Source of the DNA: Planctomycetota bacterium
GTDB lineage: Bacteria; Planctomycetota; Planctomycetia; Pirellulales; Pirellulaceae
Direction: 5' to 3'
Assembly: GCA_029979005.1 (NCBI GenBank)
Contig: JAPOIJ010000003.1
Span: forward strand, 1 to 64,000
Length of the DNA: 64,000 bases
The position numbers and the translations under genes are program-made. Below are positions 6,232 through 58,127 of this stretch, in pieces; positions within the stretch are counted from its first letter, which is position 1; every line of letters begins with the position of its first letter. The notes below the pieces were generated by a model. That model was not told where the DNA came from. It worked only from the letters and a program-made list of their open reading frames with translations, and did not search any database.

Positions 6232-6262
6232 ATCGGCAAGCTACTCATCGGATTGAGAAATT

Positions 6263-7762: not shown

Positions 7763-7864
7763 TGGTCAGGTTTCCGGTGGGAGAATATGAGTTCCGCAGG
7801 AATTTGAAGTGGCAAAATTATTTGATCGATGTTTGGGTTGTTTGCGATTGTTTCAATGGCAAAT

Positions 7865-10645
7865 TTACCAATCGTATTTTTGTTGAAAGACAGTTCGGCC
7901 TTTGGGCAAATCTATTTCCGCGACCACGTAACCGTTCTGGTCTTTCGATAATTCGATTTTCGTTGCCCCCGAAAATTGGGTGGTCCATCGATCGCCAAAG
8001 ACAATCGAATTCCCTTTAATCGTCGCCTGATCAGATCGTCCAACCAGATAGTAAAGCTTGCAGGGCTGTTCAGCTTCGATGGTAAATTTCCGAGAGATTA
8101 GTGGACGTTCATCTTCCAGAATTGGGATAGGCTGGTCTTCAATCGCGATGCCGTCCAATTGATAGTTAAAGATCGGCCGACGATTTTCATCGAAACGATA
8201 CCCTTTAAACAGCGGAGAATCGGGCCCTTTGGCTTTGTTCCACTGGCTGGGCTTAGAATTTTTAGAAAACACAATTGCTTCGGGTAGTTCAAGGAGGTTT
8301 TCTCCTAATGGAGCCTCGAAACCCTGACCGCGACCCGTCCAGTGTCGTGATGCATCGATAAAGTTTTCCTGCCAGAGAAGTGCCAACCGGCATAGTTCTG
8401 CATCAAAGGCGAGGTTGACCTCTTCCGGGTAGCCAACGCCGACCGCACGGGCGCCGGCTCCCTCAATAAAGTTTCGATAGATCTTTGGTGTATCACCTGG
8501 TGTTAATTCCATCTTGGAACGAACTAAGCCTTTTGGTTTAGCGGCTTTATCACCGTCCTCGAGGAATTTCCAAATCGAATCGATTTGCTGATGGGTATCG
8601 CCGTTAAGGATATCGGGATAGTACGATTTCCCGCCGGGCCAGGATTCAGGCATTCGTGTTCCGCGGCGAAAATTGGACGGTTTCAACATGTACATTTGGA
8701 ACCAATCTCGATTCAACCGCTTGGTCATGGTCGTTAAATCAATCGCTTGAACCCCGGTTGCGGGATATTTTCCAAAAGTATGACACTTGATGCAGGACAA
8801 GGCTTGATCGCCGGCGAAGAACCTACCGTGAGATTTAATTTTTCTTTCCGATTCCGATTGTGTTACAGGAGGGACATTTTTCAGTTTATCGAAAGCAACG
8901 AATTCATCCGCAAGGGTTCCGAGATTGTCAGCGCCGAATTTTGGCATGCGGGTTAACATGTAGGGGCGATCTTTGGCGCTCTCAAGGAGAACCTTGTCGA
9001 GCCATTTGCGATTTAGTTTTGCACCAATGGATTTCAACGCAGGTGGATGTTGTCCCTCGTCTCCCATTTCGGCCTGTGTTCCCGTGAACCATTTTTTTCG
9101 TCCATAGATTTCCAGAGAATCTCCCCGCATATCAACGACGCCACCTCGGATCGAGCGATCACTCATTTGGCGGTTGTGACATGCATAACAATTAAGCGTT
9201 ACCAGTTTTTCGTGGATGAGTTGTTCTGAATTTCTGGTTTGAGTCTTTGAGTTTTGCTCTGAATTGATTGCTTCGGCAATGCACTTGCGTTGGAATGCGC
9301 TGAGTCCAAACTCAACGGCGGATTGTGTGTCAGAAAGACAACCAACGAGCGGGTTCATTTTTGAAAATGGTGCGGGAGTCGGCAAAGTTGAATTGATAAC
9401 CTGAGCTTCGCCAAGATTGCTTTTAGGCAGTTTCATTTCGTGGCAGGATGCACAGCCGACCGACTGGAAGTAACTCTTGCCCAGTGCAGCTTTTTTTAAA
9501 TCCAGAACAAAAGGCTGGTTGTCTGGGTCAATTACGATTTCCCGAGTTGGCCGTAACAATGAGTCAAAACTGACTTCTTTTAATCCATTTCCATTGACGA
9601 TTAGGCGAATCTCTTCGCCGCCTTGAAACTCAAAAAACTCAACGCGAACTTCATGGATACCCGCGGGAATTGAAACTTCTTTTTCGACAGAATTCATTCC
9701 ATGGATTCCATCGTTATCAACAATGGTGTTCCCATCGATAATCAATCGTGAACCATCATCCGAAGTTAATTTAAATCGGTATTTGCCTTCGGCCGGGGTT
9801 TCCCAAAATCCGGTAAACACGATTCCGAAATGATCTTTCGCTTTCCCAAGCTGGACATCAAAGCCACTGGTAGTACCTCTTGAAACGGGTTTGAGCTGTT
9901 CGAAATCCGGTAATTTTTCCCATTTGCCTTCGTAGTAGGCGAAGTTGATTTTTGCTTCGACTACAGCATCGCGGATCAAGTACGCTGCAATGTTCTGAGC
10001 TTCGGCATCGGTGAGATTGAATTGAGGCATGCGCCCGGAGGGACGTGTGTGCAGAGGGTTTTTGATGAATTCTGCCAAACTCGTGAGTGAATATTTGTTT
10101 TCGAGTGAACCGAGTGGAATCGAAGTAGCAATTTTTACATCTTCATTCTGAGGGTTATGGCATGCGACACACCCAACTGAGTGGAACAGTTGCTCTCCAA
10201 GACTGACAGATTTTGAGTTGGAATTTTGTTTTGTGACCGTTCCCGTTGAGGCGAGAAAGTGCGCTAAAGATTCAGCAATGAGCTGTTGTTCAGTTTCACT
10301 TTTCCCTGCCAGCACATTCGGCATGGTGGTGCCGGGTTTTACGTGTTGGGGATTGAGCAAATAGGATTGAAAGTACTCCGGGAGGATTCGCCCGCCAACC
10401 TCTGACAGAACAGGAGCCTGCTTGGGCTGTACCGACCAATTTGATTTGGCTTTATGGCAGGACGCACAATTCAACTCGTTTATAAGTAGGTTTCCGCGTT
10501 CAACGTTGGTAATCGTTTCTGCATCTGTGAATCTTTCCACCCCTGGAATGATTGGATGCTTCTCATTGTTTTCTGAGAATGCGGGTTGAGCCAGAAAGCT
10601 CATCGCTGAAAAAATAGATAGAATGAATTTTGTTTTAACGGTCAT
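7865..10645 (-). CDS. Multiheme c-type cytochrome with embedded PA14 domain
   Basis: 926 aa, five CxxCH motifs (CASCH, CVACH, CASCH, CYACH, CIKCH); PA14-like 'FTGFWETPAEGKYRFKLTSDDGSRLIIDGNTIVDNDG'. Confidence 0.88.
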   Translation of the reverse strand: MTVKTKFILSIFSAMSFLAQPAFSENNEKHPIIPGVERFTDAETITNVERGNLLINELNCASCHKAKSNWSVQPKQAPVLSEVGGRILPEYFQSYLLNPQHVKPGTTMPNVLAGKSETEQQLIAESLAHFLASTGTVTKQNSNSKSVSLGEQLFHSVGCVACHNPQNEDVKIATSIPLGSLENKYSLTSLAEFIKNPLHTRPSGRMPQFNLTDAEAQNIAAYLIRDAVVEAKINFAYYEGKWEKLPDFEQLKPVSRGTTSGFDVQLGKAKDHFGIVFTGFWETPAEGKYRFKLTSDDGSRLIIDGNTIVDNDGIHGMNSVEKEVSIPAGIHEVRVEFFEFQGGEEIRLIVNGNGLKEVSFDSLLRPTREIVIDPDNQPFVLDLKKAALGKSYFQSVGCASCHEMKLPKSNLGEAQVINSTLPTPAPFSKMNPLVGCLSDTQSAVEFGLSAFQRKCIAEAINSEQNSKTQTRNSEQLIHEKLVTLNCYACHNRQMSDRSIRGGVVDMRGDSLEIYGRKKWFTGTQAEMGDEGQHPPALKSIGAKLNRKWLDKVLLESAKDRPYMLTRMPKFGADNLGTLADEFVAFDKLKNVPPVTQSESERKIKSHGRFFAGDQALSCIKCHTFGKYPATGVQAIDLTTMTKRLNRDWFQMYMLKPSNFRRGTRMPESWPGGKSYYPDILNGDTHQQIDSIWKFLEDGDKAAKPKGLVRSKMELTPGDTPKIYRNFIEGAGARAVGVGYPEEVNLAFDAELCRLALLWQENFIDASRHWTGRGQGFEAPLGENLLELPEAIVFSKNSKPSQWNKAKGPDSPLFKGYRFDENRRPIFNYQLDGIAIEDQPIPILEDERPLISRKFTIEAEQPCKLYYLVGRSDQATIKGNSIVFGDRWTTQFSGATKIELSKDQNGYVVAEIDLPKGRTVFQQKYDW

Positions 10646-42114: not shown

Positions 42115-43620
42115 CTATGCCAGAACTTCGTTGACGACATGTCCATGGACATTCGTGAGTCGGCGTTCCAGCCCGTTGTGGTAAAAGGTGAGGCGTTCAT
42201 GATCGAGCCCCATTAAGTGCAACAGTGTCGCGTTGAAGTCATAAACGCTGGTTTTGTTGACGGCTGCTTTGAATCCAAACTCGTCACTCTCGCCGTAGCT
42301 GAACCCTTTTTTGACTCCGGCACCGGCCATGAAGCATGTGAACGCGCCTGGATTGTGATCTCGCCCCGAGCCATTTGCTTGAAGGAACGGCATGCGGCCG
42401 AATTCAGTGGCCCAGACGATCAAGGTATGTTCAAGCATTCCCCGCTGTTTTAGATCTGCGATGAGTGCCGCGGTCGGTTGATCCATGATTTCTGCCTGCA
42501 TGGCGTGTGTGTTGGCGATGTTGGCGTGAGAATCCCAATTGGTAATTCCATTGCCTCCAGCCGGATCACTTCCATTAAAAAGCTGGACAACCCGGACTCC
42601 TTTTTCCAAGAGCCGGCGGGCTAGAAGGCAATTTTTTGCGTATTCGCCCCTTAGCTGACTTCCTCCTTCGACGCCGTAGGCGTTCAGTGTTGCCTTTGTT
42701 TCGCCGGCAAGATCCATGACATCGGGTACGGATGTTTGCATTTTGCCCGCTAATTCATAGCTTGCAATTCTCCCCGCAAGATCGGCATCTCCTGGATATT
42801 TCTCGAGGTGACGAGCGTTCAATCGTTGGAGCAAATTAATCGTACCCGCATCAGCCTGTGCTGAGATGCCGGAAGGGCGCTGTAAATTATAGGGAGGGTT
42901 CTTGGCGGTGAAATCGGTGCCCTGAAATGCGGCTGGTAAAAATCCATTGCCGAAATTGTTTTTCCCACTGCGGGCAAGGCCGCGAGGATCATTGATGGCT
43001 ACGAAGGCGGGAAGCTCCTGATTCTCAGTGCCGAGTGCATAAGTAATCCACGCGCCGCAAGAAGGAAATCCCTCCATCGTAAAACCGGTATTCATAAAAT
43101 TCTCACCCTGAGGGTGAGCGCTGGTGTCGGTTGAAAGGGCGTGAAAAAAACAGAAGTCGTCGACTTGTTCGGCGAGGTTCGGAAGTAAATCAGAAACCAT
43201 TTTCCCAGTTTCACCGCGAGGTTTGAAGTCCCAGAAAGGTTTCGCAATGTTGCCGCTGGGTCCTTCGAAAGTAACCGCGGGAAGACCCGGGGGTTTTTGC
43301 CCGTGTAGTTTTGTTAGCGCCGGTTTGTAATCGAAAGTGTCGATATGGCTGACTGCGCCGGGACAGTAAATGACCAGCACTTGTTTCGCCGGCACCTCGA
43401 AGTGTGAGGCTCGCGCGGCGTACGGATTGTTGGGGTCGATTTTTGGACGAATCGGTGATTTTCCCCCAGCGGTAAGGGGTTTATCCTCGGCGAGTAACCC
43501 GTCAGCAGCCAGCATGCTGGTTAAAGCGATACCGGCCGTCGAAAGTCCTGCCGTATGAAGGAAGTTTCGACGATCAAGTAGCTTGCGACCTTGGAAAGAT
43601 AATTTTTCTGGGTGGCTCAT
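42115..43620 (-). CDS. DUF1501 domain protein (Tat signal)
   Basis: 501 aa; 'LDRRNFLHTAGLSTAGIALTSML', 'HFEVPAKQVLVIYCPGAVSHIDTFDYKP', 'LIVWATEFGRMPFLQANGSGRDHNPGAFTCFMAGAGVKKG'. Confidence 0.93.
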   Translation of the reverse strand: MSHPEKLSFQGRKLLDRRNFLHTAGLSTAGIALTSMLAADGLLAEDKPLTAGGKSPIRPKIDPNNPYAARASHFEVPAKQVLVIYCPGAVSHIDTFDYKPALTKLHGQKPPGLPAVTFEGPSGNIAKPFWDFKPRGETGKMVSDLLPNLAEQVDDFCFFHALSTDTSAHPQGENFMNTGFTMEGFPSCGAWITYALGTENQELPAFVAINDPRGLARSGKNNFGNGFLPAAFQGTDFTAKNPPYNLQRPSGISAQADAGTINLLQRLNARHLEKYPGDADLAGRIASYELAGKMQTSVPDVMDLAGETKATLNAYGVEGGSQLRGEYAKNCLLARRLLEKGVRVVQLFNGSDPAGGNGITNWDSHANIANTHAMQAEIMDQPTAALIADLKQRGMLEHTLIVWATEFGRMPFLQANGSGRDHNPGAFTCFMAGAGVKKGFSYGESDEFGFKAAVNKTSVYDFNATLLHLMGLDHERLTFYHNGLERRLTNVHGHVVNEVLA

Positions 43621-43684
43621 GATAGACCTGAGATTGGTGTTTCAGCGAAGGAAAAAATCAACCGGATAACGACGTAGATGTTAA

Positions 43685-46468
43685 TTACGGTAGAAAGGCA
43701 AACTCGTTCGAATTCAACAAGGCACGACAAACAAGTGCAAGACTCTGTTCTTCTGCAAGTGCCGTACATGCTGCCTTTTCTGTTGCGTCAGGGCTTCTAC
43801 CAAGTAGTAACTCGAAGCATCGGTTTACCGCTACCGCCATTTGATTGTTTGCATCCTTCAAAGCACGTTGGGCAATTAAATTGGATTGTTCGATGACAAA
43901 ATCGCTGTTCAAAAGATTGAGTGCCTGAAGTGGTGTCGTAGAAACAGGCCGTTTAGGACGAACCTGACCGCAGTCTGGAAAATCAAATGCTGTGAACATT
44001 CGATCATCGACGCGTCGCATGCGTTCCTGATAGATCATGCGGCGCCAGGTTTTTTCACTGTGGTTGTCAGTGACTTCCCATTGGGCGTAACGTTTTTTCA
44101 CGTTATGAATCCGGTAGCTCTTGCCACCGATAGACGGGTCGAGCGAACCGGAGGCTTGAACGATCGAATCTCGAATTGCCTCTGCAGTCATACGCCTTGG
44201 TGGAAATCGCCACAATAATGCTGAGCCGGCATCTCGGGACATTCCATCGGCTCGGGGAGCACTGGATTGCCGGAACGCGTCAGACATAACTAACAACCGA
44301 ATCATTCGTTTCATAGACCATGGTTTTTCCGAGGATTCATCCACTGGTTGGCCTGAAGAATTTACAGAGGGTTGAACCAATTCACTGGCGAGCCAGTCAA
44401 GTAGTGCCGGATGGGTTGGTTTCGCTCCCGCCGCTCCAAAGTCACTGGTGGTAGCGACGATGCCTGTGCCAAAAACATGATGCCAAATACGATTAACGGC
44501 TACGCGCGCAGACAGGGGATGGTCAGCCGAGGTAAGCCAATTCGCAAACGCCTGACGGCGTTGTTTACCTGTTGATTCCGGAGAGAGGTTTAGCTCGCCA
44601 TTGATTTCTGTCAAACCGGCTGCGAACACCTCATCACGCGGGTTTTCAGGGCTTCCACGAGAAAGCACAAAGGTCCTTGTGGGCTTGATAAGCTTCGCAA
44701 CAAAACTCGGTTTTGGCCCCTCATCGTTAAGCTCAAGTATAAGTTGCTTGATCCGATTTACGATTGCGAGATGGTTTTCGTCATTATCCAACTGTTTGAC
44801 TTTGTTGGCCATGTAAACTTTTACCCAATCCCCTTTCTCGTTGAGGATTTCTACATCAAAAGGGCTGACGTTAAATTTATTTATATTGATCAGATAGTCA
44901 GTCTGCATGAAGTCCTGTCGGTTGGAGCTAACTCGAACGCGATTCACAAACTGAGGTTTATCAAAAGTAAATTGGACCCAGGGCTTTTCCTTGCTCCCTT
45001 TTGGAGCTTTGGCTGCCCATCCCTCGGTGCCGTATTTTCCGTCGTTGATTTTCCAGAGTTCACCGCGAGGCTGTGCAAACTTTTCAGGGGCGTTTGCTTT
45101 GGTGCCAACCGAGGCCAATGCGAGATTTTTGTTCCATTCTACAGGGCCAAGGATTTCGAGTTCATCCAGTCTTGCCCCTCCCCAATGAAACGAAATCCGG
45201 ACAGATTGAGTTTTTGTCGACGGAAAATGCATTTCTCGATAACCAATCCAATCCTCTTCCCAGAACTTGGTTTCTTTGAGTTTTGCACGTTGTTCACGGA
45301 TTAGCTGATAGATTTCTTCACCCCGTTTTCGTCGTGGGTGATCCGAGCCAAGCTCGGGAAAACGGCTTCCGAATTCAATATCCTGAAATACCGCTGTCAT
45401 CGCGTAATAGTCAGTGATGGATATTGGATCGAACTTGTGGTTATGGCACCTCGCACAGCCAATCGTCATACCGAGTGCCGAGGCACCTACCGTTTGTAAA
45501 ATTTCATCCATGCGATCAGCACGAGCTTGGCGACGCGCCGATGGTTCCTGGCCGACGGTAGCGACGGGCACGTGAGGCCCGGAAACCAGGTATCCTGTGG
45601 CTTCACCTACGCCAAGAGTGTCACCGGCGATTTGTTCCCGGAGAAATTGATCGTACGGCTTGTTCTCATTGAAAGATCGAATTACGTAGTCGCGATAAAT
45701 CCACGCGTTCTTTCGATAGAGATTGCTTTCAGATCCATTCGTCTCTGCCCAGCGAATTACGTCAAGCCAGTGTTGTGCCCAGCGTTCTCCAAACTGGGGT
45801 GACGCTAACAATCGATCGACAAGTTTCTCGTAAGCCGCCTCAGCATCCGATTCAAATTCCACCTTAAAATCTGAGATTTGTTCCGGAGTAGGCGCGATAC
45901 CTGTCAGCACAATTGACACACGGCGAATTAAAGAGATGGCGTCAGTTGGTTGAGAAAATTCGAGATTCTCGTTGGCTAGTTTTTTTGCCAGAAAAGCGTC
46001 CACTGGATTTGTAAATTTGGTTTCCGGTACGGGCGGCCGGACGATTGTTTGAAATGACCAATGATCGGATTTGACGGCTTCCACCGCTTTCATCTGCCCC
46101 GGCCAATTCGCACCTTCTGTGATCCAGCGAGTTAGCAGCGCGATTTCTTCGGCCGGAATTTTATCTTCGTCCGGTGGCATTTCCATGCCCTCTTCGGTGT
46201 GGTTAATTACGTTAAGCAAATAGCTTTTTTCGGGCTTCCCCGGCACGATGGTAGGCTGGCCGTAATCTCCCCCTTTGAGCATCTGCCATCGACGGTCCAG
46301 TCTTAGACCAGACTCCTGTTCGTCTTCTCCGTGGCAATGGTTGCAGTGCTCTGCAAATATAGGGGCGATTTGTTTTTCAAAGTCGATTTCCTGACCATTG
46401 AGGTAGAGACTCCCCGGGAGGAGTGCGAGAAGGGCAAATGTTGTCGGTAAAATAAAAAACGATTTCAT
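43685..46468 (-). CDS. Planctomycete cytochrome C / DUF1549 / DUF1553 protein
   Basis: 927 aa; 'QIAPIFAEHCNHCHGEDEQESGLRLD', 'FGERWAQHWLDVIRWAETNG', 'GCARCHNHKFDPISITDYY', 'RVAVNRIWHHVFGTGIVATTSDFG', 'ALNLLNSDFVIEQSNLIAQR'. Confidence 0.94.
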   Translation of the reverse strand: MKSFFILPTTFALLALLPGSLYLNGQEIDFEKQIAPIFAEHCNHCHGEDEQESGLRLDRRWQMLKGGDYGQPTIVPGKPEKSYLLNVINHTEEGMEMPPDEDKIPAEEIALLTRWITEGANWPGQMKAVEAVKSDHWSFQTIVRPPVPETKFTNPVDAFLAKKLANENLEFSQPTDAISLIRRVSIVLTGIAPTPEQISDFKVEFESDAEAAYEKLVDRLLASPQFGERWAQHWLDVIRWAETNGSESNLYRKNAWIYRDYVIRSFNENKPYDQFLREQIAGDTLGVGEATGYLVSGPHVPVATVGQEPSARRQARADRMDEILQTVGASALGMTIGCARCHNHKFDPISITDYYAMTAVFQDIEFGSRFPELGSDHPRRKRGEEIYQLIREQRAKLKETKFWEEDWIGYREMHFPSTKTQSVRISFHWGGARLDELEILGPVEWNKNLALASVGTKANAPEKFAQPRGELWKINDGKYGTEGWAAKAPKGSKEKPWVQFTFDKPQFVNRVRVSSNRQDFMQTDYLININKFNVSPFDVEILNEKGDWVKVYMANKVKQLDNDENHLAIVNRIKQLILELNDEGPKPSFVAKLIKPTRTFVLSRGSPENPRDEVFAAGLTEINGELNLSPESTGKQRRQAFANWLTSADHPLSARVAVNRIWHHVFGTGIVATTSDFGAAGAKPTHPALLDWLASELVQPSVNSSGQPVDESSEKPWSMKRMIRLLVMSDAFRQSSAPRADGMSRDAGSALLWRFPPRRMTAEAIRDSIVQASGSLDPSIGGKSYRIHNVKKRYAQWEVTDNHSEKTWRRMIYQERMRRVDDRMFTAFDFPDCGQVRPKRPVSTTPLQALNLLNSDFVIEQSNLIAQRALKDANNQMAVAVNRCFELLLGRSPDATEKAACTALAEEQSLALVCRALLNSNEFAFLP

Positions 46469-46507: not shown

Positions 46508-49500
46508 TTATTCATTTCGATCGCTGTTTTCAGTTTCAATCTTATTTTTATGCACTTTGTATTCTTGCCAAGACAAAGTACCGTCACGGTTGGTATCGGC
46601 ATCAGGAAAACGTTCAAAGAACTTATTTTTCCAATACTCCCCGTCTCGCTCGGTGACCGATTTTTTTGATTGGGCAGGCAAAGTTCTGGTTGGCTGGTTT
46701 TCTGTGGGTGCCGGTTGGTTTGTCTTCGATGCCTCTTGTGGCGGTCCGATGAGTTGCTCGAGAATCTTCAGGCGGTTCATGTTATTGCCAGTTCGGGCAG
46801 GGTACATTTTTTGAGTCGCGGTGGTAACGGAATGAACGAATTCGGGGTAGGATCGCCCTGTCACATCAACGAAGCCGCATTGGTGGTTTTCACGATCTCT
46901 TCTTCCCGCAGCGGATTGGTCAATCCACTGAAACCAGTGAACTCCAACAAACCGAGGGTCGGCAAGTGCGGTGGAAAGATAATTGCTGAAGGCGAGTCCA
47001 CGCTGTCGTTGATTCCAAGCTGAGGCAAGCCCCGGGCTGGGCACACCGCGATCGACCGAGCCGATGTGAAATTCACCGGCAAGAATCGGCATGTCCACAT
47101 TTTCTGGAACCTGCCAGGCTCGAACCGTCGAGTCATAGACGTTAACAGAGAATACGTCAGCATGACCGGCGGCAGCACGTCCGAGAACATTCGGGCCTCG
47201 GTGGCAACGACAGCCCAGGAATAATTTGTTGGGCAACACTTCGTTAATTACTTTTTTAGATTTGGCAAAAAACGCATTAGCAAAATCAAAGTAGTAAGGT
47301 TCGATATCCTTTTTCGCGGCAGCTGGGATCTTACTTGCTTCAGATTTCAGAACAGTATTCCAATCCGAGTGATTTGTTTCCCAAACTTCATTGAGCTCGT
47401 CGAGGGAAGAATATTTTTTCTTCAGTTGTTGAAGCACCCACTGTTTCGTTGATTCATCATCCGGCATTTCAAAAATAATGGGAGTCAATCGATCTGGCCA
47501 TTCAAATTCATTGCCTAGAAACAGGCCAAGGCAGTACGGGTCGTCTTTTACAGAAGAGAATTTTTCAAGACATTTCCGCAAGTCGGATTCGTAATTATCC
47601 CGAAACGGTGATGGAAGTTTTTTTCCGGCCTGCCACCAGATGGATGCGATCAGAGTGTAGGGGGTCTTGGCGTCCTCTTGAAGCGGTTTACTGCTCCAGG
47701 AGCCAAGGGTGTTGATGCCCCATGCCCGCATGCGGTCATGGATTCCATCTCGACTGAGTTTCTTCCAGTTGGGGCCCAGGGCCCTTGCGTAATTCATGGC
47801 CGGAAAGTTAACAAAGTCCCGGCCTTGATTCTTTTTGAGGCCGGTCCAGCGGAGTTTATGATTGTCATCCGGCAGCCATTCGAAAAAGCCAGTCTCGCGC
47901 CGAGAGGGGGTAACGGGCGTAGCTGATTCGTCTCCCGCAAGACAGACGCCAACGGAAAAGAAAAGATAGCCTTCGGGGTCGACAAGCCACCAACGGCCAT
48001 CCACTTTTTCAGTCCGGAAATGACCTGTAGCTTCCCGCTTGGGCCCGTCTTTCCAGCCACCGAAACGAGTCCAGTTTTTAGAATTTGCTGTTAATTTGGC
48101 GTCTTCCAATTCTTTCGCGAGTGTGGCCTTGAGGTCTGATGTCTGTTTAATTTTACCCGGCCAGTCGAGAGAATTGACTTGTCCCAGTTCATCTAAATAA
48201 GGCATTGCATGGAGGGCTTCGTCCCGTTCTTCCGTGGCTTCCCAGCAAGCGACGGGATCATTAACGCGAAGGTTTATATTTCCTGTGGAGGATTGCATCT
48301 CCAGTTTTAAAGTTCTTACATCTGCCGGATAAAATTTTCGCCAATGCATTCTGTGTCCGTTTGGTTTGGACAGTTGGTCTCGGAACACAGCCGGACCTTG
48401 ATACGTAGACTCGTCTTGTGGAAACACAAATCCCAGCATCGATTCCTCTTGGGAAGGTGCTACGCCAAATCCTACGCAATGCCGGGACCAACCCGTCACA
48501 TTACTATTGTTTAGCTTACCATCGACGATCGTCACTCCAGGTTCGTGATTAAAGAGGGGAACGCCAACGAGTCGGAATTTTGACACATCCCACTTCTCTC
48601 CTTCGTCAGGAACAAATTCAATTGTCAGTGGGGATTTTCCCTGAACGATCCAACCGCCCCCATCTCGTTTGATGGTGCCTTTGAATTGATCGCTAATTTT
48701 GAGTTTTAGCGTTTGGATTGGTTGAAATAAATCGGCGGTGTGAACTTGATTGGCAGTAGACGTTAGCTCGGCGGCTGAATTCGTTGGCTCAAAAACAGAG
48801 GCCGCCAGTGGTTGAGTACTTCGTGTAGATTCTACAATCCGTTTTAGTTCTTTGCGCATTTGAACAACTCTGGCCTGCTGTTCTTCGTCATTCAGCAGGT
48901 CATTCGTTTCTTTTAAGTCAGAGGCCAGATTAAACAAATGAAGAGGCTTCTGCTCGCGAGACGTAATTAGTTTCCAGTCACCCATCCGAACCATTTTTGC
49001 CAGTTGCTGTCCATAGCGAGGTTCCGAGTTGGCCTGAACAAACATTGAATTTCGGGTGGAGTCATCGCGGTCACCATTGAGCACTGGGAGAAAAGATTCG
49101 CTATCGAGGCCTTGGTCGGGTTCGACGGCTTGACCTGTCAAATCAGCGAATGTCGCATAAATGTCCTGTAGTCCGACCAAGGCATCGGAACGAGTTCCCG
49201 GAGCGATGACTGATCCTGCTGGCGTGCCGTTGCCCCAGCGAACAATCATAGGAATGCGATGGCCTCCCTCCCAGATCGAAGCTTTGCTGCCACGAAGTCC
49301 GCCACATGAGTCGTGTCCAAGTTTTTGAGCCCCCGGTTTGCCTCGTGAAAGCCCACCGTTATCACTTACGAAAAGAATCAGGGTGTTGTCTAGTTCTCCG
49401 TGATGCCGGAGTCGCTCGATCATTTTCCCGAGCGTTACATCTGCTTCGAATAGCATATCGAGGTGAGCGTCTCCCGTTGCCCCTTTAATTTCTACGCCGT

Positions 49501-50350
49501 CCAGTTCCCGCGGAGGCGTATGCGGTTTGTGACAAGACTCGGTGCAATAGTGCATGAAGAATGGCTTGCGTTGACCGGTAGCTTGATTGTTGGAAATGTG
49601 ACGATCGATAAACTGAATTGCTTTGTCTGCCAGAATTGGACCAACTTGGGAAGAGTCCCAGTCGGGAGTTCCAAATCCGGTTTTTAATATGACGGAGTTA
49701 CCATGAGTTCCTTCATTCCAAATTTTTAATTCCCTGGATTTCCCAGCGAGAAGACCATTTTCAAAAGCGATATAAGGCGGCCCCTGAATTCCCTGTGGTA
49801 ATTCGTAGGCATAGTCGAACCCGAAACTGAATGGGCTGTCTTCAATCGGTCGGGAAAAATCAATATCTCGAAAATCGTACTTCCACGAGATAGGTTCACC
49901 TGTGGTCTTGCTGTACATTTGGCCGCCAAGATGTACCTTCCCTAAAAATGCGGTGTGGTAACCCGCTTTTTGCATCAAGTGTCCAAGGGTTCGCTGACCG
50001 TCAAGGACCTGGGAAGGCTGATGGAAGATCCATGTGCCGTTTTCCAGTCTGCCGCGATATGGGTAGTTACCCGTTAGAACGCTGTATCGGGTAGGCGCGC
50101 AAACGGATGAAGGAGAATGCGCATCGGTGAAGAGCATTCCGTCGGTGGCGAGTTGTTCGAGGTTGGGGAGAGCAACCTTGCTGTCTGCATTATAAGAGCG
50201 GCAATCACCGTACCCCATGTCGTCCATAAGAAATAAAATGACATTGGGAGGTTCATTGGCCGACACTGTCGACGTGATAAATCCGATGCTCAAAACAATC
50301 ATTGCCAGGCAAGCAGATGCGGTTGATGATTTTATTTTCAAAGGGTTCAT
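46508..50350 (-). CDS. Tri-modular protein: N-terminal type I sulfatase, central/C-terminal agarase-like (GH50-like, clan GH-A) glycoside hydrolase, C-terminal EF-hand
   Basis: 1280-aa uninterrupted ORF; 'NVILFLMDDMGYGDCRSYN', 'VCAPTRYSVLTGNYPYRGRLENG'; 'GHFRTEKVDGRWWLVDPEGYLFFSVGVCL', 'LGLFLGNEFEWPDRL', 'MPILAGEFHIGSVDRG'; EF-hand 'FPDADTNRDGTLSWQEYKVHK'. Confidence 0.85.
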   Translation of the reverse strand: MNPLKIKSSTASACLAMIVLSIGFITSTVSANEPPNVILFLMDDMGYGDCRSYNADSKVALPNLEQLATDGMLFTDAHSPSSVCAPTRYSVLTGNYPYRGRLENGTWIFHQPSQVLDGQRTLGHLMQKAGYHTAFLGKVHLGGQMYSKTTGEPISWKYDFRDIDFSRPIEDSPFSFGFDYAYELPQGIQGPPYIAFENGLLAGKSRELKIWNEGTHGNSVILKTGFGTPDWDSSQVGPILADKAIQFIDRHISNNQATGQRKPFFMHYCTESCHKPHTPPRELDGVEIKGATGDAHLDMLFEADVTLGKMIERLRHHGELDNTLILFVSDNGGLSRGKPGAQKLGHDSCGGLRGSKASIWEGGHRIPMIVRWGNGTPAGSVIAPGTRSDALVGLQDIYATFADLTGQAVEPDQGLDSESFLPVLNGDRDDSTRNSMFVQANSEPRYGQQLAKMVRMGDWKLITSREQKPLHLFNLASDLKETNDLLNDEEQQARVVQMRKELKRIVESTRSTQPLAASVFEPTNSAAELTSTANQVHTADLFQPIQTLKLKISDQFKGTIKRDGGGWIVQGKSPLTIEFVPDEGEKWDVSKFRLVGVPLFNHEPGVTIVDGKLNNSNVTGWSRHCVGFGVAPSQEESMLGFVFPQDESTYQGPAVFRDQLSKPNGHRMHWRKFYPADVRTLKLEMQSSTGNINLRVNDPVACWEATEERDEALHAMPYLDELGQVNSLDWPGKIKQTSDLKATLAKELEDAKLTANSKNWTRFGGWKDGPKREATGHFRTEKVDGRWWLVDPEGYLFFSVGVCLAGDESATPVTPSRRETGFFEWLPDDNHKLRWTGLKKNQGRDFVNFPAMNYARALGPNWKKLSRDGIHDRMRAWGINTLGSWSSKPLQEDAKTPYTLIASIWWQAGKKLPSPFRDNYESDLRKCLEKFSSVKDDPYCLGLFLGNEFEWPDRLTPIIFEMPDDESTKQWVLQQLKKKYSSLDELNEVWETNHSDWNTVLKSEASKIPAAAKKDIEPYYFDFANAFFAKSKKVINEVLPNKLFLGCRCHRGPNVLGRAAAGHADVFSVNVYDSTVRAWQVPENVDMPILAGEFHIGSVDRGVPSPGLASAWNQRQRGLAFSNYLSTALADPRFVGVHWFQWIDQSAAGRRDRENHQCGFVDVTGRSYPEFVHSVTTATQKMYPARTGNNMNRLKILEQLIGPPQEASKTNQPAPTENQPTRTLPAQSKKSVTERDGEYWKNKFFERFPDADTNRDGTLSWQEYKVHKNKIETENSDRNE

Positions 50351-50359
50351 AAAGAAAAG

Positions 50360-51973
50360 TCAGTCAGAATTTTGAGTGTTGATTTGAAGTTCAGGAACCA
50401 TTTCGTTCAAACGAGTTCGCATGGACCGCAGCATAGGTTGGTAATTTTTATGAGATGCAAGATTATCCCATTCGTAGGGATCTTTTTTGTGATCGTAGAG
50501 TTCTTCGTTTCCATTCCGGTACCGGATGTATCGCCAGTCCGTTGATCGGATAGACCAATTTTGATTTTTAAGATCGAACTTTTGAAGTTTGTCGAGTTTC
50601 AAATACTCGCCAACAAAGATCATCGAGAGAGCAGTGTCCGGCCCTTCCCACGCTCCATGTTTAGGGTTTTCAATTAGCGGGCGGATGCTGTGACCATCCA
50701 GTTTTGCCCCTTGGTTGTTTTTGCGTGTATCACCGTCGAGAGCACATAAATCAACAAGCGTCGGATATAGGTCGATCAATGAAATTGGCTTTTGACAGCG
50801 GACCCCTGTCTCTTTCAGTCCGGGCACTCGGATAATGAACGGGACACGGGTGCTCTCCTCCCACGGAGAATTTTTGAATAAGTAGTCCTTTTCACCCATG
50901 TTCCATCCGTGGTCACTCGTTACCACGATAATGGTATTGTTGCGAATAGAAGGATCGGGGGATGAATCAATCGCATCGACGATTTTTCCAATGCACTCAT
51001 CCACTGCAGCGACTCCGGCAAGATAGGCTTGAGTGAACGCTTTAAGAGCATCCTCTCGAGTGGGGTACGAGTCTAATAATGTTCGATAGTATCTCAAACC
51101 TTTTTGCTCGGGTGCATAGACGTCTGCGTAATAGGTGTCTTCGGCATCTCCGGAACGAATAACAGGTAGCTGGACATCCTCGATTGGAAATAGATCAAAA
51201 AACTTTTTGGGGACATGGATAGGTGTATGCGGACGGATTAATCCTATTCCTAAAAAGAATGGAGATTTGAATTCTGGATCTGAAAAATTACGAATTTGCT
51301 CAGCTGCCCATTTTGCGTTTCGTTCGTCAGGGGTCAGATCTCGATCGTTTTCTGAAACGTATCGAAACCGCTGCCGTTTTTTCCAATTGCCATAAATCCA
51401 TCCACTTTCGGGATTACCGTCATTGGCAAAAGGTACTCTTGAAAGCGGCGCGAATGAGCCGTCTACGGGTCCGATGGATCGGAATGGCATTGGTACGTCC
51501 GGGTGTGCGACTCGCTGAGTCCCATCAAAAATAGAGGGCCCATAATCCGCGCGATATTTGAAATCACTCCATTCGTCAGGCTTGCCATGGTGCATTAATT
51601 TACCGGATCCAGCGACGTGATAGCCATTATCTCGGAAATGCTCCATGATTGTTTTTGAGTTTTTCAGGACGGGGTTTTCAAACCATTTACCCCAGAACAA
51701 ATTGCCGGAAGTGTGTGGGTAAATGCCCGTTAAAAAACTCGAGCGTGAGGGCGCGCATACGGGATTGTTACTGTAAGCGCAATCGAAAGAGACACCGGAC
51801 TTGGCCAGTGCTTTCATAGAAGGTGTTTTGGCTTGAGGGTGTCCGTCAAAGCCTTCGACATAGTCGTTAAGGTCATCGCATACAATGAGGACGACGTTCG
51901 GGCGCTCATCGGCGGCAACCCATTGGCTAAACAAGCTGACGATTGCGAGCGTGCTAAGTAAGAACAGTTTCAT
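50360..51973 (-). CDS. Type I sulfatase (iduronate-2-sulfatase-like)
   Basis: 537 aa; 'NVVLIVCDDLNDYVEGFDGHPQAKTPSMKALA', 'VCAPSRSSFLTGIYPHTSGNLF', 'TSDHGWNMGEKDYLFKNSPWEESTRVPFIIRVPG'. Confidence 0.94.
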   Translation of the reverse strand: MKLFLLSTLAIVSLFSQWVAADERPNVVLIVCDDLNDYVEGFDGHPQAKTPSMKALAKSGVSFDCAYSNNPVCAPSRSSFLTGIYPHTSGNLFWGKWFENPVLKNSKTIMEHFRDNGYHVAGSGKLMHHGKPDEWSDFKYRADYGPSIFDGTQRVAHPDVPMPFRSIGPVDGSFAPLSRVPFANDGNPESGWIYGNWKKRQRFRYVSENDRDLTPDERNAKWAAEQIRNFSDPEFKSPFFLGIGLIRPHTPIHVPKKFFDLFPIEDVQLPVIRSGDAEDTYYADVYAPEQKGLRYYRTLLDSYPTREDALKAFTQAYLAGVAAVDECIGKIVDAIDSSPDPSIRNNTIIVVTSDHGWNMGEKDYLFKNSPWEESTRVPFIIRVPGLKETGVRCQKPISLIDLYPTLVDLCALDGDTRKNNQGAKLDGHSIRPLIENPKHGAWEGPDTALSMIFVGEYLKLDKLQKFDLKNQNWSIRSTDWRYIRYRNGNEELYDHKKDPYEWDNLASHKNYQPMLRSMRTRLNEMVPELQINTQNSD

Positions 51974-51975
51974 TT

Positions 51976-53412
51976 TTACCGACCCGCCTTTTCAGATGAT
52001 TTACGATCTTGTTTTTTCTGAAATGACGGCAAGTGGATTAGCCCCAGAAAAATCGGATCAATTAATTCTGCAGACCATTTTTCTCTCAACGTTTCCAGCT
52101 CAGCTAAAATGTCGGGCTCCCGAAGAGCTAGGTTTTTAGATTCGCCAACGTCGTTTTTCAAATTGTACAGTTGAGATTTACCTCCTTTAAAAGGTACGAC
52201 CTGCTTGTAGTCGCCACGCCGTACGGCATAGCGTTGTTGATCGAATTTTCGGAGGTAAATAGCGTGGTGGGGCGGTGTATTGATTTCCCCGCGGACGTAA
52301 GGCACGAGATTGACGCCATCGAGTGGGCGCTGCTCATCTAGGGTGGCACCGCTAAGCGAAGCGATGGTGGCAAAAATATCAAGGGAGCTGACGGGTAGAT
52401 CATAAACGATGCCTTGGGGAAATTTAGCAGGCCAGCGGGCGGCGAAGGGAACGCGAAACCCCCCTTCCCAGACATCTCCTTTGTTGCCGCGAAGCGGATT
52501 GTTTTGAGAGGCGTTTTTTGGCGTTGGTCCACCATTATCCGATAGAAAAAAGATGAGCGTGTCTTGTTCGAGGTTATTAGTTTTTAGCGTTTCGAGTAGC
52601 GTTCCAACGCCGTCGTCGACGGCGCTGACCATAGCAGCATAAGTTCTGCGTTTAGGATTCTTGATACCCTTAAATCGTTCCAAATATTTGGGGGTTGCCT
52701 GAAGAGGTAGATGCGGTGCGTTGTAAGATAAAAATAAAAAGAATGGTTGTTCTTTGTTTTTTTCTACGAACCGGACGGCAGCATCTGAAAATTCATCCGT
52801 TAAATACTTAGTCGTTTTGACCGGTGTGCGACCATTCAAAATCAAGGTTCGGTAACTCTCATTTTCATTACTGGCTGCGGCACTGTCCTCAAGCGTGAGT
52901 TCCTCCGGTAGGTAACGATGACCGCCACCGAGGTGCCCGAAAAACTCGTGAAATCCACGATTGAGTGGATGATGTTTTTGATTGGCACCAAGATGCCATT
53001 TACCAACGACTCCGCAACGATAACCGGTTTTGCTAAGCGCTTCAGCCATGGTGGTTTCGCTCAATGGGAGTCCCATATTGGGATCATTCGGTAAATATTG
53101 TGGATTGCGTTCGAATCCAAATCTCTGGGGGTATCGTCCAGTGATGAAACCGGCACGGCTGGGCCCACAAACCGAGTAAGAAACATAAGCGTTGGTGAAC
53201 TTCACCCCGGCGTTGGCGATCGAATCAATATGAGGCGTGGGAATGTCGGTGCACCCATTAAAGCCAACGTCGGCGTATCCAAGATCATCGGTCATTATCA
53301 CGATTAAGTTTGGCGCTGTTTGCATTTGGCCGTGCGCGCTCGCATCCGTAGAAGTTGCCAACAATAAATTGGCAAAGGAAAAGATGGCGATTAAAAACTG
53401 CATAGATTTCAT
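51976..53412 (-). CDS. Type I sulfatase
   Basis: 478 aa; 'NLIVIMTDDLGYADVGFNGCTDIPTPHIDSIA', 'VCGPSRAGFITGRYPQRFGFERNP', 'FFLSDNGGPT'. Confidence 0.94.
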   Translation of the reverse strand: MKSMQFLIAIFSFANLLLATSTDASAHGQMQTAPNLIVIMTDDLGYADVGFNGCTDIPTPHIDSIANAGVKFTNAYVSYSVCGPSRAGFITGRYPQRFGFERNPQYLPNDPNMGLPLSETTMAEALSKTGYRCGVVGKWHLGANQKHHPLNRGFHEFFGHLGGGHRYLPEELTLEDSAAASNENESYRTLILNGRTPVKTTKYLTDEFSDAAVRFVEKNKEQPFFLFLSYNAPHLPLQATPKYLERFKGIKNPKRRTYAAMVSAVDDGVGTLLETLKTNNLEQDTLIFFLSDNGGPTPKNASQNNPLRGNKGDVWEGGFRVPFAARWPAKFPQGIVYDLPVSSLDIFATIASLSGATLDEQRPLDGVNLVPYVRGEINTPPHHAIYLRKFDQQRYAVRRGDYKQVVPFKGGKSQLYNLKNDVGESKNLALREPDILAELETLREKWSAELIDPIFLGLIHLPSFQKKQDRKSSEKAGR

Positions 53413-53533: not shown

Positions 53534-55513
53534 TTATTTTTTATCCAGCTCGGCTTTAAACTTTTTATATTCGGGCCAGCTCAAATCACCATCGTGATTG
53601 GTATCAGCTTCAGGGTGAAGTTTGAAGAATTTGTCTTTCCATAGCAGATCCGACGTTTGTTTTTCTTGCTGAGAAGAATCTGATTTTTTATTTGTTGTTT
53701 TTGGTTTTTGAACGGTCATCTCCGGCTTGTGAGCGTTGCGTTCCGGCCAGGACAAGATCCCGTCTCCATTCGTATCAGCGTCTGGATGTTTTTTGAAGTA
53801 TTCGTCTTTCCAATATTCAGCGGTTTTCTTTTCAGATTCAGGATTTCCGTTGACCGGAGGCTTGGTTTGGGCTGGTTTCTTGGGTTTAAAGACAGGTTGA
53901 TTCGGAATCGAGTCTTTTTCCGTGGGAATCCGTTTGACCAGCTCGTTTCGAAGCGCGGTTAGAGGTCCGGCATGGCTTGGGTCAGCAACTAAATTATTCC
54001 ATTCATGCGGGTCGGCGATGGTTTGATAGAGTTCCTCCTTTCCGTTTTCATAGCGAATGTAACGGTAGTTTCCTGACCGGAGAGAATAATTCTCTTTGGC
54101 CGGATTGTACTTCATACGCCATTTATAAAGGGCGGTGAGCACGGACTCAGGTCCTTCCCAGGTTTGGGTTTGCGCGTTTTCTAAAAACGGTTTAAGACTG
54201 AATCCATCAAGTGACCGGCCTTTCGGGTTTTTCATGGTTTCACCCGTCAGTCCGCACAAATCAACTAATGTTGGATAGATATCTATGAGTGAAACGGGAT
54301 GTTCTGAAACAGTCCCTGGTTGTGCGACTCCAGGCGCGCGAATAACCAACGGGATTCGCGTACTTTCCTGCCATAGCGAGTTTTTGTAGAGGTAGTCTTT
54401 TTCTCCCATGCCCCAGCCGTGATCGCTGGTTACGATAACGATGGTGTTGTCTGCGAGAGCGGTTCGCTCAACGACATCCATAATATTTCCGATCAACTCG
54501 TCTACTGAGGCAACACTGGCGAGATACGCTTGAATGAATCGTTTGAGCGCTTCCTCTCGCGTGTCATAGGAGGCGACAAGGTCTTGATACAACCGGCTTC
54601 CCATGTCCATCGTTCGTTGTGAATTGGGTTCTTTCTCCGCTACGTTCCCACGAATTGAAAGAGCAAAAGTATCTTCGGCGTCTCCTTTCTTAATGTCTGG
54701 CAACTCAATGGTGTCGAGTGGAAATTGGTCAAAGAAACGTTGGGGAACAACGAGCGGAGTATGAGGCCGAATAAAACCAACACCCATGAAGAAAGGCTGA
54801 TCTCCGGGTTTTTCAGCGAACTCTTTTAAGTGATCGACCGCCCATTGTGCATTGAGTTCGTCGGCAGTGAGATCCCGGTTTTCTTGTGTAGTGATGTTAA
54901 GCGCGCGCGTCTTTGCCCAGCCACCGGTGAGCCACGAATAGGGAACACCGTCCTTGTTCGTTCGTCCGGAAATGTCAACCAAAGGGCCAAACGAACCGTC
55001 GACAGCTCCAATTTCCCGATACGGTGCAGGGACGTCCGGGTGGGCCACGCGATCACTGCCGGTCAGAGCAAACGGCCCGTAGTCAGCGGGATTACCATAC
55101 TTGTCCCATTCTTTGGGAACGAGGTGGTGCATTAACTTTCCGGTGCCAAGTGTGAGATATCCATTGGCCCTAAAGTGGTCCATCAATGTTCGGGAATTTT
55201 TCAGTACTTCGTACTCGTTCCATTTTGTAAATCCAAAGCAACTGGAGTGATGGGGGTAAATTCCAGTAAAAAGACTTGCCCGAGAGGGACCACAAATGGG
55301 GATGTTGCAATGAGCCTGAGTGAAAGTAACTCCCGCCTTACTCAAACGGGCTATGTTGGGTGTTTGAGTTTGGGGGTGTCCACCAAAGCCTTCAACATAG
55401 TCATTAAGGTCATCGCAGATGATCAAAATTACGTTAGGTTGTTGAACTGCCAGAGCATCATTCAGCGGTTGAAACGTAAAAGCTAAGCACAGAAGTAGTA
55501 ATTTAGTTTTCAT
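53534..55513 (-). CDS. Type I sulfatase (iduronate-2-sulfatase-like) with two C-terminal EF-hands
   Basis: 659 aa; 'NVILIICDDLNDYVEGFGGHPQTQTPNIARLS', 'ICGPSRASLFTGIYPHHSSCFG', 'TSDHGWGMGEKDYLYKNSLWQESTRIPLVIRAPG'; EF-hands 'DTNGDGILSWPE' and 'DTNHDGDLSWPE'. Confidence 0.94.
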   Translation of the reverse strand: MKTKLLLLCLAFTFQPLNDALAVQQPNVILIICDDLNDYVEGFGGHPQTQTPNIARLSKAGVTFTQAHCNIPICGPSRASLFTGIYPHHSSCFGFTKWNEYEVLKNSRTLMDHFRANGYLTLGTGKLMHHLVPKEWDKYGNPADYGPFALTGSDRVAHPDVPAPYREIGAVDGSFGPLVDISGRTNKDGVPYSWLTGGWAKTRALNITTQENRDLTADELNAQWAVDHLKEFAEKPGDQPFFMGVGFIRPHTPLVVPQRFFDQFPLDTIELPDIKKGDAEDTFALSIRGNVAEKEPNSQRTMDMGSRLYQDLVASYDTREEALKRFIQAYLASVASVDELIGNIMDVVERTALADNTIVIVTSDHGWGMGEKDYLYKNSLWQESTRIPLVIRAPGVAQPGTVSEHPVSLIDIYPTLVDLCGLTGETMKNPKGRSLDGFSLKPFLENAQTQTWEGPESVLTALYKWRMKYNPAKENYSLRSGNYRYIRYENGKEELYQTIADPHEWNNLVADPSHAGPLTALRNELVKRIPTEKDSIPNQPVFKPKKPAQTKPPVNGNPESEKKTAEYWKDEYFKKHPDADTNGDGILSWPERNAHKPEMTVQKPKTTNKKSDSSQQEKQTSDLLWKDKFFKLHPEADTNHDGDLSWPEYKKFKAELDKK

Positions 55514-55877: not shown

Positions 55878-56444
55878 TTGGGCAAATCAAATTCACAGGA
55901 TGATCGGTATCAGCGATTCGTAGGGCTCCTTGCGCTCAATGATCAAGCGATTCGACGATTTATTCGTTCACTACTACCATCGACCCAGGGGGTAGATGAC
56001 GTGGTTCAAGAAACGGCGCTGGAGTGTTGGCGCAAATTTTCAGATTTTGAATTGGGTGATGCAGATCACCCGGATCAAACTCAAGGAAGCGATGAGTTTA
56101 TACGTTGGGCTTGTGTCATTGCGAGGTTCAAGGTCATGAGTTGTCAACGAGACTGGGCGCGTGACCGACTCGTATTTCGAGAGCATATTATTGAGCAATT
56201 TGCTGAAGATGCGTTTGAGCAAATTGAAAATCGTGACTTGGAACGGATGGCATTAGAAGATTGTCTGAGTCAGCTCGTCGTGGAATCGCGACGGCTCTTG
56301 TTGAGCGTTTATCGACCCGGGGATTCTGTGAAGCGGATTGCAAGAGAGAGCGGTGAAAAATCACGTCGGCTGTACCGAAAAATGAACGGGCTGCGAAAGC
56401 AATTGTTGAACTGTGTTGAACGTCGGTTGGCTGAGGAATCTTAA
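55878..56444 (+). CDS. ECF RNA polymerase sigma factor (planctomycete type), TTG start
   Basis: 188 aa; 'RFIRSLLPSTQGVDDVVQETALECWRKF', 'FIRWACVIARFKVMSCQRDWARDRLVF', 'LVVESRRLLLSVYRPGDSVKRIARESGEKSRRLYRKMNGLRKQLLNCVERRL'. Confidence 0.92.
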   Translation: MGKSNSQDDRYQRFVGLLALNDQAIRRFIRSLLPSTQGVDDVVQETALECWRKFSDFELGDADHPDQTQGSDEFIRWACVIARFKVMSCQRDWARDRLVFREHIIEQFAEDAFEQIENRDLERMALEDCLSQLVVESRRLLLSVYRPGDSVKRIARESGEKSRRLYRKMNGLRKQLLNCVERRLAEES

Positions 56445-58127
56445 ATGGATAAAGAGACTGAAAAATTAATATTCCGCGCGATTGACGGAGTGATTTCTCC
56501 GGGTGAATTTGAGCGTCTCCAAGATGTGTTGGAAGTCAACGAATTCGCGCGAGTGTTTTATTTGCGGATGCTATCTCTCGACCAATCTGTGGCGGAGCTG
56601 GCCGAGTCTGCGCGAGATGAGATTGTCGACCGACCGAAAGCTAATTGGAATTCATTCGCAAGCGGCAATGGAAAAACAAACACGTCGTTGCGAGGGCGTT
56701 GGCTGTCTTATATGTCGATTGCTGCAAGTGCAGTTGTTTTGACGACACTTGTATTTTACTTCGCGCGACCGTGGAGTGGGACCGAGATTGTGCAGGTTCG
56801 TGAGGTTGAGCCGGCCCCATCGATCCCAGGTAAAAAAGGTGTTGCTGAAGTTATTCAAAGAATTGACTGTGTTTTAGAAAATGAAAAATGGGGCATAGTT
56901 GATTCTTCTTTCGAGCCGGGGCAGTCCATCACCTTACTAGAAGGTGTGGTGGTGGTTGAGTTTCGAAAAGGAGCGAGAGTTACTTTGGAGGGGCCAGCTA
57001 ATCTTGAGTTTTTGTCTGACAATAGCGGATTTCTTCAGTCGGGAAAGTTGACGGCAGTGATTCCAGATTCGGCTACGGGATTTGAGATATTGACTCCAAG
57101 CAGCCGTTTGATTGATCACGGGACTGAGTTTGGAGTGAGTGTTGATGCAAACGGCAATACCGAAACCCATGTTTTTAAGGGTGAGGTTGAGTTGGTTTCA
57201 AGTCAATCTAAGAGTCAAGCGGCTAACTCAAATCCTGGTAGCCAGCGTTTGACAGACGCGATGGGGATTCGGATCAAGAGAGAAGGTGAAGTTGCGGCAG
57301 AGGTGATCGATGCCAATCCAAGTCAGTTCATCCGTACTTCCGTTGTAGATTCCCGGCGGTTTGAGAATCAAAATGAGGTGACTGAATTAGTTGATAAAGA
57401 GCATTTGGCAATGTGGTTTGAAGCAGGGCAGGGGGTTCAGCGAGACTCGAGCGGTCGGGTAATATCGTGGGAAAATCTCGCGCAAGGTTCATCGAATCGT
57501 AACCAGCCACCCCTGGAATCATCCGCTTGGCAAGTCAGCGCAAGTCGCCGCCCCGGTTGGTCTGAGAACGGGCTTGGCGGTTTTCCTGCCGTTCAATTCG
57601 GTGGGTACGATAAAAAAGAATTCCTGGCCACCACCCCTCTTCGTTTAAAAGCAGATGCGACGGCGTTGGTTGTTTGCCAATTTGATCCGGTGGAAGAGAT
57701 TGGCTATGGCCACCTTTTGGTTTTGGGAGGGCAGACTAAGTTTATTTTAGAGCGTCGAGAGAACAGTGAGACGGGTAGCTATACGCTATCCTGGCAAAAC
57801 AAGAAGGTGCCGCCATTTCAAATGGAGGCGCTCGAAAATGTAAAATCGGTTTCGTCTCATCAGCCGCAGGTTTGTGCAGTGCGGTACAGTGTCGACCAAG
57901 GTATTTTTGAACTGTCTGTCAATGGGAAAGTCGTGGCATCTGGAAATCCGATCGGGAGCCTGGCGGTCAATTCATCTCAAGTCATTGGGTGCGGGCATCG
58001 CCGGGATCGATTCTTTTTTAAAGGACAAATTTCGGAAATTGTCATGTACAACAGAGCATTGGAGCAAGAAAAGTTCGACGAAGTTACTGAATCTCTAATG
58101 CGAAAATATAAGATAGAAACTCAGTAA
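56445..58127 (+). CDS. FecR-like transmembrane protein with C-terminal LamG/concanavalin-like domain
   Basis: 560 aa, starts immediately after the ECF stop codon; TM 'YMSIAASAVVLTTLVFYFA', FecR core 'GVVVVEFRKGARVTLEGPANLEFLSDNSGFLQSGKLTAVIPDSATGFEILTPSSRLIDHGTEFGVSVDANGNTETHVFKGEVEL', LamG 'DATALVVCQF...GQISEIVMYNRALEQEKFDEVTESLMRKY'. Confidence 0.9.
   Translation: MDKETEKLIFRAIDGVISPGEFERLQDVLEVNEFARVFYLRMLSLDQSVAELAESARDEIVDRPKANWNSFASGNGKTNTSLRGRWLSYMSIAASAVVLTTLVFYFARPWSGTEIVQVREVEPAPSIPGKKGVAEVIQRIDCVLENEKWGIVDSSFEPGQSITLLEGVVVVEFRKGARVTLEGPANLEFLSDNSGFLQSGKLTAVIPDSATGFEILTPSSRLIDHGTEFGVSVDANGNTETHVFKGEVELVSSQSKSQAANSNPGSQRLTDAMGIRIKREGEVAAEVIDANPSQFIRTSVVDSRRFENQNEVTELVDKEHLAMWFEAGQGVQRDSSGRVISWENLAQGSSNRNQPPLESSAWQVSASRRPGWSENGLGGFPAVQFGGYDKKEFLATTPLRLKADATALVVCQFDPVEEIGYGHLLVLGGQTKFILERRENSETGSYTLSWQNKKVPPFQMEALENVKSVSSHQPQVCAVRYSVDQGIFELSVNGKVVASGNPIGSLAVNSSQVIGCGHRRDRFFFKGQISEIVMYNRALEQEKFDEVTESLMRKYKIETQ

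Follow-up and report, generated by a model that had tools for sequence, protein, structure and literature searches.

The stretch of DNA analysed here (the window, 64,000 nucleotides) comprises positions 1 to 64,000 of contig JAPOIJ010000003.1 from a planctomycete of the family Pirellulaceae (assembly GCA_029979005.1). On the reverse strand, at positions 46508–50350, is an open reading frame that is uninterrupted over 1280 amino acids (aa). It joins an S1 sulfatase to a GH50 glycoside hydrolase, and by their sequences both halves look like complete enzymes. A preliminary description of this locus had proposed a single frame with a complete S1 sulfatase, a central beta-rich linker, a GH50/agarase-like barrel and a C-terminal EF-hand. 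The single frame is confirmed, and further genomes, from Mariniblastus and Verrucomicrobiota, have the same open reading frame structure. The N-terminal sequence suggests that the enzyme may be exported (Table 1).

The S1 domain (Pfam PF00884) is found at aa positions 35–406 with an E-value of 1.1e-42, and the SGSH_C subdomain (PF16347) at aa positions 358–505. S1 sulfatases are matured by conversion of a cysteine to formylglycine, and proteins of the formylglycine-generating enzyme family are encoded in the source genome. The maturation motif is present as VCAPTR at aa positions 83–88, together with the other catalytic residues D43, D44, R88, K138, H140, H274, D330, N331 and K356. Thus the maturation motif CAPTR and the ten residues checked for the catalytic, metal and sulfate sites are all in place, and none of them varies, in either phylum, among the fused proteins that cover the column. 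The sulfatase is complete, as had been proposed.

S1_15 is the closest subfamily by sequence: six of the eight best profile matches are S1_15 structures. A Foldseek search with a model of aa 31–1195 gave GH50 proteins, then eight S1_15 chains (1e-34 to 1e-32), with S1_16 behind at 9e-27. S1_15 members read galactose-6-sulfate or N-acetylgalactosamine (GalNAc)-6-sulfate by means of a D, R, H triad (PMC6994673, PMC10154612, PMC12549532), which recognises O3/O4 of galacto-configured sugars (PMC6994673, PMC10154612). This triad was not found in the S1 half of the fusion, where the columns were placed in alignments by the DRVP and H-x-x-S/T motifs. Q189 and G190, in a GIQG motif, stand in place of D and R, and the third residue varies: His216 is Tyr in the orthologue L037 and in the Verrucomicrobiota fusions. 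The S1_15 (galactose-6-sulfate) specificity was therefore rejected as an assignment; since the triad is replaced or variable, galactose-6-sulfate is a possible target of the module but is not indicated by its sequence.

The GH50 module is missed by Pfam alone and PDB sequences were needed to find it. With the whole protein as query, aa positions 813–1189 match the GH50 beta-agarases 5z6p (1.3e-63), 4bq2 (7.5e-60) and 6xj9 (3.2e-59). The C-terminal half alone gives 1e-60 to 1e-64, and the match then extends N-terminally to about aa 716. An AlphaFold2 model of aa 511–1195, built with 46 homologues, shows a GH-A barrel (predicted local distance difference test, pLDDT, 86.8; predicted template modelling score, pTM, 0.88) in which both of the expected glutamates are present, in agreement with the barrel proposed earlier. 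In Foldseek the GH50 structures Aga50D, PfGH50B and AgWH50C match it from end to end (1e-48 to 1e-44, query TM 0.66–0.72). Because the match is full length, the central linker of the preliminary description is in fact the first domain of the GH50 enzyme, resembling a carbohydrate-binding module (CBM), and the whole enzyme spans aa positions 534–1190. PF17992 is matched in 9 of 46 relatives and not in the fusion protein itself; the CBM-like domain is visible in the fold. The real linker consists of about 13 disordered residues (aa 521–533).

A retaining mechanism with two glutamates is established for clan GH-A. The two candidate glutamates named earlier (positions 47507–47509 and 47072–47074) are E948 and E1093; in alignments they coincide with the catalytic pair of GH50, and neither varies. 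The 4bq4 sequence has Gln in place of the Glu aligned with E948, and the second Glu of the pair lines up with E1093. In Aga50D the catalytic pair is E534 and E695, and equivalents of its other listed residues N533, F742, R752 and E757 are kept in the fusion (PMC11079163). The six GH50 active-site residues checked, i.e. both Glu and four others, are invariant in both phyla wherever the column is present. The fused proteins also display fixed changes at positions conserved in agarases: D to C803, FH to PS1104–1105, G to R1153 and Y to H1156. These positions are conserved in other GH50 proteins as well as in the solved agarases. Along the chain, P1104–S1105, R1153 and H1156 are near catalytic or listed active-site residues.

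The search for this architecture elsewhere was positive. The fusion is present in 10 of 28 Mariniblastus genomes (one copy is truncated by a contig end). Within one marine family of Verrucomicrobiota, 16 of 42 genomes have it as well, all in long frames. A GH50 profile scan of about 85,000 species genomes again found it in marine Verrucomicrobiota (L114–L120), with an identity of 57%–61% in the S1 half and about 55% in the GH50 half; overall, the cross-phylum identity is ~57%. The carriers include uncultured marine single cells and metagenome-assembled genomes (MAGs) from plankton. The idea that two genes were joined by an assembly or frame error is refuted, with next to no probability left to it, as over 20 genomes, obtained in independent projects and belonging to two phyla, share this open reading frame structure.

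Other GH50 proteins of Planctomycetota are mostly standalone and about 700 aa long. Longer GH50 open reading frames elsewhere (about 920–1530 aa) that were checked gave no S1 match; in the five scanned with Pfam the partners are porphyranase-like, a 3-keto-disaccharide hydrolase, a dockerin or unassigned. Related Pirellulaceae have GH50 proteins of 1461–1486 aa (L038, L039, L040, L041), and a sulfatase gene follows in three of the four. In L039 (positions 5055–9443), the one of the four scanned for domains, GH50 is combined with an agarase CBM and a part that resembles porphyranase A (PF18040). L122 (1416–6065) has tandem GH50 modules in a 1549-aa open reading frame that overlaps an S1 gene. 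A relative of the S1 half of the fusion (L101:1438–3954, genome G179) is joined to a GH43/GH117-like domain with weak matches to anhydro-galactosidases.

Both catalytic modules are under strong purifying selection, with a ratio of nonsynonymous to synonymous substitutions (dN/dS) of 0.04–0.06 in the more divergent Mariniblastus pairs; the linker is higher. In a 130-row GH50 tree, a quick tree whose PDB rows are partial and were typed from printed alignments, the fused proteins group with the protein L113 in a single clade (100%), which has a long stem and whose sisters are standalone GH50 proteins of Verrucomicrobiota (99%). In this tree the clade is apart from the known agarases 5z6p and 6xj9 and was not placed within the GH50_1 gammaproteobacterial agarase clade. 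A careful 24-row tree again gave the fused clade at 100/100. The long stem branch and the substitutions near the active site could be taken as signs that the GH50 module has lost catalysis and is a remnant that serves for binding or as a scaffold. However, the invariance of both Glu and four more active-site residues in two phyla, and the low dN/dS, make this very improbable.

L113 is the only unfused member of the fused-type clade. Its GH50 begins right after a DUF1501-type gene, as read from the sequence, and the L113 genome lacks a close counterpart of the S1 half. L113 may represent either the ancestral state or a fission. In approximately unbiased (AU) tests, all fused proteins as one clade gave p = 0.27 and a single origin within Mariniblastus p = 0.076, so that neither was rejected. 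The nearest unfused GH50s include genes that adjoin S1 genes (L124), and such neighbours are a plausible source of the fusion. Transfer between Planctomycetota and Verrucomicrobiota, in either direction, is likely.

The model of aa 31–1195 has a pLDDT of 89.2 and a pTM of 0.60 and is disordered at the hinge (aa 521–533). The protein thus appears in the model as two well-folded modules on a flexible hinge, with a relative orientation that is not fixed. A disordered hinge and a low whole-chain pTM, together with the unfused L113, would be expected if the modules were independent and acted on different substrates, the fusion serving for co-secretion or shared anchoring only. This is considered unlikely. 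The fusion is kept at ~57% identity between phyla, no standalone copy of the fused-type GH50 was found among the 16 verrucomicrobial carriers, and the known S1–GH hybrids work sequentially (PMC8511951, PMC13063451).

The C-terminal EF-hand of the preliminary description stands in part: the loop motif is a good one, but it scores below the Pfam cut-off (13.6 vs 25.9 bits). This type of tail is found in two proteins of the genome, both in the sulfatase cluster, plus one weak match, and a dockerin/cellulosome reading was discarded on this ground. The tail (positions 46547–46642) resembles two tail repeats (53558–53818) of the sulfatase three genes upstream, and it is missing from the 60%-identical orthologue L037 and from the verrucomicrobial fusions. 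Thus, by its sequence, the tail looks to have been copied between neighbouring genes.

Table 1. Features of the S1/GH50 locus (positions in the window; aa numbering of the fusion protein).
Feature	Position	Strand	Basis
S1 sulfatase–GH50 fusion coding sequence, predicted secreted	46508..50350	-	1280 aa, ATG start; Pfam, PDB matches, orthologues
Putative N-terminal export signal, aa 1–31	50258..50350	-	Hydrophobic stretch then SANE, read from sequence
S1 sulfatase domain and C-terminal subdomain, aa 35–505, S1_15-like fold	48836..50248	-	Pfam PF00884, PF16347; PDB; Foldseek
CAPTR, aa 84–88, Cys84 predicted formylglycine site	50087..50101	-	Invariant where column present, both phyla
Disordered hinge between modules, aa 521–533	48752..48790	-	pLDDT ~33 in 1165-residue model
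CBM-like N-terminal domain of GH50 module, aa 534–715	48206..48751	-	Strand-rich; full-length alignment with Aga50D
GH50 (beta/alpha)8 catalytic barrel, aa 716–1190	46781..48205	-	PDB matches, AlphaFold2, Foldseek
E948, predicted acid/base (Aga50D E534)	47507..47509	-	Alignment, invariance; PMC11079163
E1093, predicted nucleophile (Aga50D E695)	47072..47074	-	Alignment, invariance; PMC11079163
Single EF-hand loop motif DTNRDGTLSWQE	46556..46603	-	Sub-threshold Pfam; loop fits by eye
S1 sulfatase, 9 nt upstream of fusion gene	50360..51973	-	Pfam; same order in other Mariniblastus
S1 sulfatase	51976..53412	-	Pfam
S1 sulfatase whose C-terminus has two EF-hand repeats of the fusion's type	53534..55513	-	Adjoins fusion in both phyla
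PSCyt1-PSCyt2-PSD1 protein (DUF1549/DUF1553), next gene downstream	43685..46468	-	Pfam
DUF1501 protein	42115..43620	-	Pfam
Extracytoplasmic function (ECF) sigma factor, Rhodopirellula/Verrucomicrobium type (TIGR02989), divergent from cluster	55878..56444	+	Candidate regulator
LamG-like protein directly after sigma factor	56445..58127	+	Weak PF13385 match; candidate sensor

Six co-directional genes are present in the window in the order S1–EF-hand, S1, S1, S1/GH50, PSCyt/PSD1 and DUF1501; neighbours are 2 to 121 nt apart, and the six may be co-transcribed. The S1 block is kept in other Mariniblastus. Four consecutive genes in L114 and L115 are those for DUF1553, DUF1501, S1 with EF-hand repeats and the fusion. 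A cassette of S1–EF-hand, S1/GH50, S1, DUF1553 and DUF1501 genes is thus common to both phyla. The TIGR02989 ECF sigma factor, divergently upstream, is a likely regulator of the cluster, with the LamG-like protein as a candidate sensor. Pairs of PSCyt/PSD and DUF1501/DUF1552 genes adjoin sulfatases at positions 42115–46468 and also at 648–4471. The source draft genome (5.06 Mb) has 131 sulfatase-family matches, 12 of them in the window.

The fusion probably encodes a secreted bifunctional enzyme in which desulfation is followed by GH50 cleavage on the same substrate. Cys84, matured to formylglycine, would serve the S1 module in removing a terminal sulfate ester from a fragment of a sulfated polysaccharide. 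On its short flexible hinge, the GH50 module would then cut the beta-glycosidic bond that has been exposed, its two Glu acting in a retaining mechanism. Both steps would be sequential on one substrate, with assistance from the products of the three sulfatase genes that directly precede the fusion gene in the same orientation. The shared substrate, the order of steps and the exo mode are inferred, and the sequential action of the known hybrids favours the same order here by analogy. Several points weigh against this proposal. Membership of GH50 does not fix the substrate, and the bifunctional action is suggested by sequence and model. The orientation of the domains is not predicted (pTM 0.60), so substrate channelling cannot be argued. 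In addition, L113 has a GH50 of this clade without a sulfatase, hence GH50 function does not strictly depend on the fusion.

As the fusion is conserved in two marine phyla, its target is probably a single sulfated marine polysaccharide, which it would both desulfate and cleave. The preliminary description favoured a substrate of the agar, porphyran or carrageenan kind, which the present analysis does not support. A red-algal galactan (porphyran, agar, funoran), from which S1 would remove the 6-sulfate and GH50, as an exo-beta-agarase, would give neoagarobiose-type products, is possible but rather doubtful. The GH50 activities include beta-agarases, which are the majority of those characterised, a beta-galactosidase and beta-1,3-glucanases (PMC11079163); carrageenase is not among the GH50 activities named in the literature searched. 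Every active-site residue listed for Aga50D is retained, the closest S1 structures are the S1_15 galactose/GalNAc-6-sulfatases, and the weak matches of the S1 relative L101 are to 3,6-anhydro-L-galactosidases. Against this, the tree sets the fused clade well apart from the agarases, positions that agarases conserve are changed in it, the S1_15 triad is lost at Q189 and G190 with Tyr for His in several orthologues, and the source genome contains a single GH50 and just two GH16 matches. The single cells and plankton MAGs among the carriers also make a red-seaweed substrate not obvious. A sulfated beta-galactan-like glycan, not simple agarose, is expected. Tentatively, and less likely than not, the fusion may define a new GH50 subfamily and a new S1 subfamily that jointly degrade a sulfated polysaccharide of ocean plankton other than agar, porphyran or carrageenan, with the cassette exchanged between marine Planctomycetota and Verrucomicrobiota.

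Three other multidomain enzymes were seen in the same genome. Contig C35 (L045:3–4238) has a 1412-aa frame with a GH3 C-terminal part, S1 and a GH30-like domain, which runs off the contig start. On contig C245 (L046:3–3233) S1 is joined to a GH33-type sialidase (BNR) in a 1077-aa frame that is truncated by the contig end. A 1015-aa open reading frame on contig C32 (L047:3641–6685) has two S1 sulfatase domains.

Sulfation is thought to shield marine polysaccharides from breakdown, and the sulfatase-rich Planctomycetota and Verrucomicrobiota have many sulfatases with targets yet to be assigned. As a hybrid pairs one sulfatase with one glycosidase, the substrate of the GH50 would probably carry the sulfatase target too. 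The fusion widens GH50 beyond the known agarases, and the two-phylum cassette is testable as a unit.

The fusion appears to be an S1–GH hybrid by its sequence, with both catalytic domains intact in one open reading frame that is conserved in relatives. Such hybrids are known already (S1_25–GH78, S1_51–GH195), while S1–GH50 is a new combination; it was not found in the literature covered, i.e. open-licence papers. In P36 of Formosa agariphila, an S1_25 sulfatase with a GH78 rhamnosidase, the terminal sugar is desulfated before cleavage (PMC8511951). P36 likewise has an S1 sulfatase and a glycoside hydrolase on one chain, but it differs in its S1_25 subfamily, in GH78, which is another family and fold class, in its Bacteroidota host and in its substrate ulvan. 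PbSulf1-GH195 of Polaribacter (S1_51 and GH195) performs two consecutive steps on a plankton-derived sulfated marine glycan (PMC13063451). It shares the S1 and glycoside hydrolase on one chain and differs in GH195, in acting on alpha-mannan and in its secretion by the type IX secretion system. Aga50D (4bq2), AgWH50C (5z6p) and PfGH50B (6xj9) share the two-domain GH50 module, the catalytic pair and the listed active-site residues. They are without a sulfatase, have about 24% identity in the structural alignment, fall in a separate clade and differ at the set of positions altered in the fusion. The S1_15 sulfatases BT1624, BT3109, BT3333, BT4631 and P. distincta S1_15A/B are the best profile and fold matches of the S1 half, which differs from them in having Q-G (in GIQG) for the D and R of the triad and in not keeping the His in all orthologues.

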